Assembly: GCA_012800795.1 (NCBI GenBank)
Contig: JAAZIQ010000010.1
Coordinates: forward strand, 1-32,872
DNA from: Bacillota bacterium
Lineage (GTDB): Bacteria > Bacillota > Dethiobacteria > Dethiobacterales > Dethiobacteraceae
Length of the DNA: 32,872 nt
Reading direction: 5' to 3'
Part shown: piece by piece, positions 7,629 through 10,637 of the stretch
Layout: every line of letters starts with the position of its first letter
How positions within the stretch are numbered: position 1 is the stretch's first letter
The notes under the pieces: generated by a model
What the model was told of the DNA's origin: nothing
The model's database searches: none
The model's input: the letters and a program-made list of their open reading frames with translations, nothing else
Translations under genes and position numbers: made by a program

Positions 7629-7666
7629 AAAAAAAGCACTAACCCCAACCAGCTAGGGTAAGTGCT
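7629..7666 (-). terminator. Terminator of the first UroD-like/microprotein unit
   Basis: On the minus strand AGCACTTACCC pairs with GGGTTAGTGCT (11 bp, one mismatch) and is followed by seven T. It stands 13 bases past the 46-codon gene, which supports that small gene being real. Confidence 0.8.
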
Positions 7667-9018: not shown

Positions 9019-9063
9019 TTATTTCGCATCTTTTGTAAATTGCAACAAGTTTAATTGAAACAT
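9019..9063 (-). other. Leader mini-ORF (14 codons) before UroD-like gene 1
   Basis: A frame of 14 codons ending 26 bases before the UroD-like start. Its ATG overlaps the TAA of an even shorter frame: ATGTAA at 9063-9068, with a consensus AAGGAGG (9076-9082) placed seven bases before that ATG. The best ribosome site in this leader thus feeds a start codon followed at once by stop, or by slippage the 14-codon frame. It could act as a translational control element or be a relic of a lost gene. Confidence 0.4.
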
Positions 9064-9179
9064 TACATTTTTAGACCTCCTTAGCTTGTGAAATTTATAA
9101 TTTACTTTCCCCTTTTTTCTCCTTTTTCCTGCTTTTGTTTTGGGAAAGCGGTAAATTATAAAAACTTACTTTAGCAAGC

Positions 9180-9202
9180 AAAAACCCAGTCCTTTGACTG
9201 GG
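9180..9202 (-). terminator. Terminator of the second UroD-like/microprotein unit
   Basis: CCCAGTC and GACTGGG form a 7-bp stem with a 4-nt loop, followed on the minus strand by TTTTTGC. It separates the two UroD-like units into separate transcripts. Confidence 0.8.
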
Positions 9203-9230
9203 CTGCGAATATTTTTTCAAAACCATAATT

Positions 9231-9380
9231 TTAAAAACAGAGAAACATCACAAAAGCAAACATCATCTCTTCATAACTTTGCATTTTCTCAGCCATGGCT
9301 TTGGCCTGTTTTTCATCAATGTCAGGATTTAAAGCCCGATATTCTTCCCAAGTTTTATAGTATTTTGATTTCAAGTCCAT
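9231..9380 (-). CDS. Small protein (49 aa) downstream of UroD-like gene 2
   Basis: A 49-codon frame that starts 12 bases after the UroD-like gene, with AAGGAGG nine bases before its ATG, one of the best ribosome sites in the window. It ends 28 bases before a terminator. The product begins MDLKSKYYKTWEEYRALNP, continues as a charged helix (DEKQAKAMAEKMQSYEE) and ends in a very hydrophobic tail (MMFAFVMFLCF). The tail could insert in a membrane or pack against a partner. It shows no clear similarity to the 46-residue protein behind the first UroD-like gene. No family is recognised. Confidence 0.75.
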   Translation of the reverse strand: MDLKSKYYKTWEEYRALNPDIDEKQAKAMAEKMQSYEEMMFAFVMFLCF

Positions 9381-9392
9381 ACGGTTTCCTCC

Positions 9393-10544
9393 TTAATAAT
9401 TGGCATTCTTACCAACATACTCATATACTGCTTTCAAATTATCAGGATTGATATCCCCCAGCGAAACCGGTGATTTATCCAATGTGAAAATATAACGCCC
9501 GCCAGGTGCTAAAGTATCAACCAATTCTTTTGCCTTATCTATACATTCCTCTTTAGTTGCTGTTTTTAACATGGTTACAGGGTAAAAACCTGCGATAATA
9601 TGCTTATCTCCTATTTTTTCCTTCGTCAGCTTGGGATCACCATATTCAAACATCATAATGGTCCCTTCCGGAAACTCATAGAGTAGATCAAGAAAACGCA
9701 TGAAGTTTTCTTCTACAAAAAGGAAACAACGATGCCCAAGCGCTGCCAACTCATCAACCAGCTTTTTAAAAGTGGGGAAGTACAATTCTTCCGCATCCTT
9801 TGTCCGCATAAAAGGAGCCATATGTAGAGGAATAAAAACAGCACTGTTAGGCAGGGGAGCCGGAATTCCCATTTTGATCATGACAGGAGTTACGGCTTCC
9901 GCCGCAGCTTTAACCTTCTCAGGCATCCGGCGGATATCGGCTAAAATATTTTTAAAACCACGCAATTGGTCTGCCACAAAATCTAGGGGCGCTTCACAGG
10001 CACCGGCAAAAAAGTTTGCCTGACCGTAACCGTATTTTTCCGTCAATTTAGCCCCAACCTCGGCCACTCTGCCCATTTCTTCAAAAAAGATTTTAAAGGC
10101 TTTGGCCATGGTGATTGCTTTCTGATAAGGATCTGTATTTAGGTTTGTATACAAACGAGGGAGTACTTTTTCTATAATACAATCATAAGGTGAAGCAATA
10201 AAATCATCATACTCGTCCGCCTCTAACCCCACCACTTCCGGATGCTGCATAAAACCACTTGAGCCCATGAGCCAGTTACGTGCCCCTAAAACGCGGTACA
10301 TGGCCGGAAAACGTAAATTAGTCACACCAAAACTGTCAGAATAAAAATCCCGGCAAATAACATCCGCCACTTTTTCAAAATACTTTTCTGTATTCCACTG
10401 GGCTTCCATCATATCCATACCTGCATACTGAATTGAAAACTCATAAGTAAGCATGCCATAAACAGGCACCCTTTTAGGAATTTTTCCTTCCAGCACATCG
10501 GTAAATATTTGCGTTCTTTCCTGTGCCAATTCTTTTGTATTCAT
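9393..10544 (-). CDS. UroD-superfamily protein, copy 2
   Basis: A 383-residue paralogue of the preceding UroD-like gene, alike in length and order of blocks: ERTQIFTDVLEGKIPKRVP near the start, CEAPLDFVADQLRGFKNI in the middle, IPLHMAPFMRTKDAEELYF, then a C-terminal block with GDKHIIAGFYP. The site matching the zinc-binding H-x-C-G of MtaA-type enzymes reads FVEENF, so neither His nor Cys is present, although the EEN is shared with copy 1. This suggests both belong to a subgroup with a Glu-Glu-Asn site. The frame opens with GTG, but the ATG three codons in has better spacing to the GGGTG/AAAGGA region, so I use it. It is in an operon with a 49-codon gene. The reaction is unknown; a methyl-transfer role is one option. 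Confidence 0.85.
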   Translation of the reverse strand: MNTKELAQERTQIFTDVLEGKIPKRVPVYGMLTYEFSIQYAGMDMMEAQWNTEKYFEKVADVICRDFYSDSFGVTNLRFPAMYRVLGARNWLMGSSGFMQHPEVVGLEADEYDDFIASPYDCIIEKVLPRLYTNLNTDPYQKAITMAKAFKIFFEEMGRVAEVGAKLTEKYGYGQANFFAGACEAPLDFVADQLRGFKNILADIRRMPEKVKAAAEAVTPVMIKMGIPAPLPNSAVFIPLHMAPFMRTKDAEELYFPTFKKLVDELAALGHRCFLFVEENFMRFLDLLYEFPEGTIMMFEYGDPKLTKEKIGDKHIIAGFYPVTMLKTATKEECIDKAKELVDTLAPGGRYIFTLDKSPVSLGDINPDNLKAVYEYVGKNANY

Positions 10545-10637
10545 CAGATGCACCCATCCTTTTAAAAAATATTTTCTTCTTTAGTTTGTATAAATTTGCT
10601 GATAATATGTTTAGTTTCATGATAATTTTTATTTTCT

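Follow-up and report, generated by a model that had tools for sequence, protein, structure and literature searches.

The locus raises the question of why two genes for UroD-superfamily proteins, U1 and U2, should each be followed by a frame for a protein of fewer than 50 residues, and of what these small proteins, m1 and m2, would do. The window, i.e. the whole stretch of 32,872 nucleotides analysed, is contig C66 of a Dethiobacteraceae assembly (G000; 1.67 Mb), which holds 22 matches to U2. The repeated enzyme-plus-microprotein layout described in the first-pass annotation is real: both units lie on the minus strand (Table 1), and each microprotein is followed by its own stem-loop and T-run, so that the two separate terminators it had reported are indeed present. 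The hydrophobic end it had noticed on the 49-residue protein was likewise confirmed (MMFAFVMFLCF, the last 9–11 residues being strongly hydrophobic). An alternative GTG start at position 10553 is possible for U2 and would give 386 amino acids. A strong Shine–Dalgarno sequence (AAGGAGG) precedes the ATG of m2, and the gap between U1 and m1 is 24 nt. The stem-loop behind m2 (AGCCCAGTC..GACTGGGTTTTT) has changed bases in the sister genome with pairing kept; that behind m1 is AGCACT..AGTGCTTTTTTT.

Table 1. Positions in the window of the two enzyme-plus-microprotein units and their terminators.
Feature	Position	Strand	Description
U2, UroD-superfamily protein	9393..10544	-	383 aa from ATG; probable corrinoid methyltransferase I
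Spacer U2/m2, with Shine–Dalgarno sequence for m2	9381..9392	-	12 nt, read from the sequence
m2 microprotein, 49 aa	9231..9380	-	SKYYxTWExY...QxYEExMFxFxMFL domain, conserved family
Intrinsic terminator of the U2–m2 unit	9180..9204	-	9-bp stem and T-run
U1, UroD-superfamily paralogue, 382 aa	7844..8992	-	PF01208 match; 34% identical to U2
m1 microprotein, 46 aa	7679..7819	-	Probable distant member of the m2 family
Intrinsic terminator of the U1–m1 unit	7629..7666	-	AGCACT...AGTGCT stem and T-run

About 80 nt upstream of U1, a Shine–Dalgarno sequence is followed by a start–stop pair (AAGGAGGTCTAAAAATGTAA; 9063–9086, minus strand). The pair is also found in the sister genome (L042), where the surrounding DNA is only 69% identical, and one further case alone was seen among the other upstream stretches scanned.

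Comparison of G000 with the sister genome (G001) gave 15 synonymous differences and 1 non-synonymous difference for m2 (dN/dS 0.005), and 13.5 synonymous and 3.5 non-synonymous differences for m1 (dN/dS 0.043); dN/dS was 0.027 for U2 and 0.066 for U1. The small ORFs are 89% identical between the two genomes, as against 65–69% for the intergenic stretches that separate and follow the units. Judged by these substitution patterns, m1 and m2 are coding sequences under strong purifying selection; the random substitutions that the first-pass annotation had named as an argument against its reading were not seen.

To see how widely the pairing holds, small frames behind UroD-superfamily genes were surveyed. 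Relatives of m2 were found behind U2 orthologues by tblastn and profile searches, and the same stretch was found fused C-terminally, after a linker of about 25 residues, in other UroD-like genes of G000 and in many Clostridia. The fused proteins (450–470 aa; Eubacterium callanderi, Anaerosolibacter, Anaerovirgula, Acetobacterium) belong to the clade of U2 and share the SKYY...FxxxL domain, but differ in carrying it covalently through this linker. In the fetched loci, the iterated m2 profile took in 124 matches, of which 70 lie in short and 53 in long frames. The same loci yielded 176 distinct UroD-like genes, gathered as relatives of U2 and U1, so that the fractions describe this clade only: 61 are fused C-terminally, 107 have a small downstream ORF, 3 have the ORF upstream, 2 are cut by contig ends and 3 are without any. 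Some of the small ORFs counted belong to sequence types other than m2. Strict limits for a downstream ORF (36–62 aa, a gap of 5–65 nt and a Shine–Dalgarno sequence) were passed by 107 of 112 unfused relatives, as against 38 of 688 other long frames (5.5%) and none of the 18 other UroD-superfamily genes of the same genomes, HxC-type genes and CdmB included. Relatives lacking these frames, which would have spoken against the pairing, are thus few. When the exceptions that lack a microprotein, including CdmB, were inspected by eye at their N-termini, no substitute domain could be recognised. All 27 genes examined in E. callanderi have the domain (6 fused, 21 separate); three weaker matches there lie outside this count. 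The clade has about 20 or more copies per genome in G000 and in E. callanderi, and the m2 domain occurs in 24 of 399 genomes spread over the phylum. Nearly every enzyme examined in this branch has the domain, which is therefore probably an overlooked enzyme subunit. The microprotein has no relative in Pfam, NCBIfam or the PDB.

The two microproteins had been called unrelated, a description that did not hold up. Over their full length the m1 and m2 profiles can be aligned (hhalign probability 41%, E 2.9e-4), and a bridging microprotein beside another UroD-like gene of G000 (G000:C79:11600-11728) is matched by both the m1 profile (E 7.6e-6) and the m2 profile (E 1.5e-3). When 24,216 frames were searched, the matches below threshold for either profile were also rich in members of the other type. 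Iteration of the m2 profile by itself failed to bring in m1 at E < 0.01. Because of the alignment, the shared intermediate and the crossed sub-threshold matches, m1 and m2 are probably distant members of one family. Of 20 genomes of the family, 6 carry the m1 type (A3 family). About 30 microproteins of neighbouring UroD clades occupy the same slot (LPPGVC...WWWVQR; NNREVLEKIAKEV...; ELTIEELF...) with no link by sequence.

The first-pass annotation had not recognised the plan as a known one; one instance of it has been published. In Desulfitobacterium hafniense, RdhU (corrinoid protein), RdhV (UroD-like), RdhW (MeTr) and RdhX (48 aa) are co-induced at the protein level, RdhX having been detected by proteomics with its function unknown, and copies of rdhUVX occur in Dehalobacter restrictus and of rdhUVWX in D. 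hafniense DCB-2 (PMC9888536). In a Dehalobacter-type genome (G236), two tandem units of corrinoid protein, UroD-like protein and 47-aa protein adjoin a reductive dehalogenase cluster. The m2 profile reached Dehalobacter-type RdhX with a best E value of 2e-4 (scaled to 24,216 frames); in the opposite direction, 58 of the 63 matches of a Dehalobacter-type RdhX profile in the 24,216 frames were members of the m2 family (best E 3e-5). By these profile matches, the Dehalobacter-type 47-aa RdhX-like proteins are homologous to m2, and one instance of the plan has therefore already been published as an unknown. The U2–m2 plan and RdhV/RdhX share a UroD-like protein, a protein of about 48 aa and, in relatives of U2, a neighbouring corrinoid protein; no ORF near U2–m2 looked like a reductive dehalogenase in the window ORF listing, part of which was scanned against families. 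RdhV and RdhX were published as unknowns of organohalide respiration, with no fusion, family or general link to methyltransferase I. Apart from RdhX, nothing on a small subunit for these enzymes was found in the literature searched, nor was any description of the enzyme-plus-microprotein family, of the fusion or of the clade-wide pairing.

The small size of m2 and its position before a terminator would also suit a peptide with a regulatory or leader role, or a spurious, untranslated frame downstream of U2. This is scarcely credible beside the ratio of synonymous to non-synonymous changes in m2, the fusion of the domain into enzymes, the size of the family and the report of RdhX at the protein level (PMC9888536), and the reading was rejected as contradicted by fusion and selection.

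For the enzymes themselves, both U1 and U2 match PF01208 (E 4.8e-10 for U2), indicating a UroD fold, and the nearest solved structure to U2 is CdmB, the chloromethane methyltransferase I of Acetobacterium dehalogenans (PDB 9rui; E 4.3e-26; PMC13222342). Like U2, CdmB is a zinc-free TIM barrel of the UroD superfamily, and it works with a corrinoid protein and MTII, in likeness to the reading of U2 given below. It differs in ending at a conserved Tyr, with neither a C-terminal domain nor a downstream microprotein, whereas U2 and its relatives have such a partner; its aligned stretch also lacks the FxE motif of the U2 clade. MtaA and MtbA (soluble CoM methyltransferases) and CmuA resemble U2 in being corrinoid-linked members of the superfamily, but this group has a His-x-Cys...Cys zinc site, which U2 lacks, and no microprotein lay behind the HxC-bearing genes tested, unlike U2.

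U2 had been described as a paralogue that lost both zinc ligands. At the ligand positions it reads FVEEN and DKSPVS; the His-x-Cys...Cys set is, however, absent across the whole clade (HxC being present in the control proteins), and the cysteines of the first paralogue, U1, are not conserved. The U2 paralogue is thus not distinguished by this loss. Of 169 relatives, 166 retain the Glu of FxE and 167 the His of PLHM; at the residue preceding this Glu, 67 have Cys, 54 have Val and others Phe, Leu or Ala. CdmB and a Moorella O-demethylase have been reported without zinc (PMC13222342).

The gene neighbourhood of U2 orthologues was then considered. In two Desulfitobacterium-type loci (L310 of G395 and L325 of G433), a corrinoid-protein gene is directly followed by the U2 orthologue, and this by m2 and an MTII homologue; the full order in L310 is CP-UroD-m2-MTII-DUF1638-CP-GntR-RACo. 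In L043, a corrinoid protein lies directly before U2–m2 and a pterin-binding protein after it. Genes for a corrinoid protein, MTII and a reductive activator are all present in L310, and the first two in L325 and L043. Fused versions in L098 and L103 stand beside genes for corrinoid proteins, sigma-54 activators and MFS_2 transporters. No corrinoid-protein gene was found near U2–m2 within the window. The orthologue operons, taken with the closeness of U2 to the solved structure of CdmB, make U2 a probable corrinoid methyltransferase I, and the methyl transfer to corrinoid proteins raised in the first-pass annotation is likewise judged probable. The DUF1638 gene of L310 (2964–3659) lies between those for methyltransferase II and the second corrinoid protein.

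The same operons, with their corrinoid-protein and MTII genes, would also fit a separate adaptor or assembly factor that has the corrinoid protein, MTII or RACo as its binding partner, fusion merely keeping the microprotein near; in D. hafniense, RdhX follows RdhW (MTII). We regard this as unlikely, since the microprotein is nearly always found behind the UroD gene and not the corrinoid gene, the single-chain model of a fused relative folds confidently and the microprotein tracks the divergence of its UroD partner. The fused E. callanderi protein (AlphaFold2, 41 sequences) was predicted with a pLDDT of 92.6 and a pTM of 0.91. Its barrel matches UroD structures, and the fused domain forms two helices (420–426 and 432–455; pLDDT 90–96). 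U2–m2, modelled as a read-through fusion with an artificial short linker, gave the same two helices at lower confidence (66–87). Microprotein and enzyme distances are correlated (Mantel r 0.78, 0 of 1000 permutations), and the correlation also holds when only the paralogues of E. callanderi are compared (r 0.69, 0 of 2000 permutations). Each microprotein–enzyme pair has diverged together; shared descent alone would give the same correlation. Mean-field coevolution analysis of 120 pairs gave no signal above chance, with 71 inter-protein pairs among the 400 highest-ranking, where 78 were expected. On the tree, the fused and separate states require three changes, two of them forced by supported branches.

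The strongly hydrophobic last 9–11 residues of m2 might alternatively be taken as a membrane anchor that ties the enzyme to the membrane. The tail is too short for a transmembrane helix, and in fused relatives it closes the confidently predicted helical domain; a membrane anchor is thus very improbable and was rejected on these two points.

The reading that we consider probable is that m2 is a small helical subunit, split from or fused to the enzymes of a methyltransferase I clade that passes methyl groups to Co(I) of a corrinoid. U2 would move a methyl group from a methylated substrate to Co(I) of a partner corrinoid protein, and m2, which in relatives is the C-terminal domain, would fold as a short helix followed by a long amphipathic one, whose hydrophobic end would pack against its enzyme's TIM barrel. 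As a guess, m2 may stabilise or close a hydrophobic substrate cavity or the corrinoid-docking face. We infer that m2 is translated in this organism, that it is a physical subunit of U2 and that the pair carries out this reaction. Counted in favour of a subunit were the almost one-to-one occurrence with this enzyme clade, the fused and separate versions, the distance tracking, dN/dS, the AlphaFold2 fold, the operons and the homology with RdhX; counted against it were coevolution at chance, the weaker U2–m2 model, the lack of a corrinoid-protein gene near the pair in the window and the activity of CdmB without such a subunit.

Many UroD-like methyltransferases without a known substrate are found in acetogens and organohalide respirers. 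In a broader form of the proposal, which we hold to be evenly balanced, a large, biochemically uncharacterised clade of methyltransferase I would consist of two-chain or fused enzymes that depend on their small helical subunit to capture the substrate or to dock the corrinoid; microproteins of unlike sequence that fill this slot in neighbouring clades would do the same job, and RdhX would be one such subunit. If these enzymes need a subunit of about 48 aa, it is easily missed or omitted in cloning, which may help to explain their lack of characterisation, and RdhX would gain a testable function. The short domain, which occurs both fused and as a separate protein, would offer a clear natural example of a domain that exists as a microprotein.

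Other proteins in the same slot were also recorded. A protein of 55–60 aa (LPPGVC..WEQKxKExG...WWWVQR) lies behind the genes of a neighbouring UroD-like clade, where genes for corrinoid proteins are close by (L057–L064, L307, L311, L313–L315, L319, L320 and L322), and one of 36–42 aa (NNREVLEKIAKEV.GAKTPEEVEKAVK.LIKSF) behind those of a third UroD-like clade (L043–L048, L066, L067 and L306). Three UroD-like genes and three microproteins, two of them upstream of their presumed partner, lie within 10409–14571 of L038 (G000:C79). In L037 (2553–3926; G000:C44), a UroD-like protein has a fused C-terminal stretch that may resemble the WWWVQR-type microprotein, and this fusion may have arisen independently.
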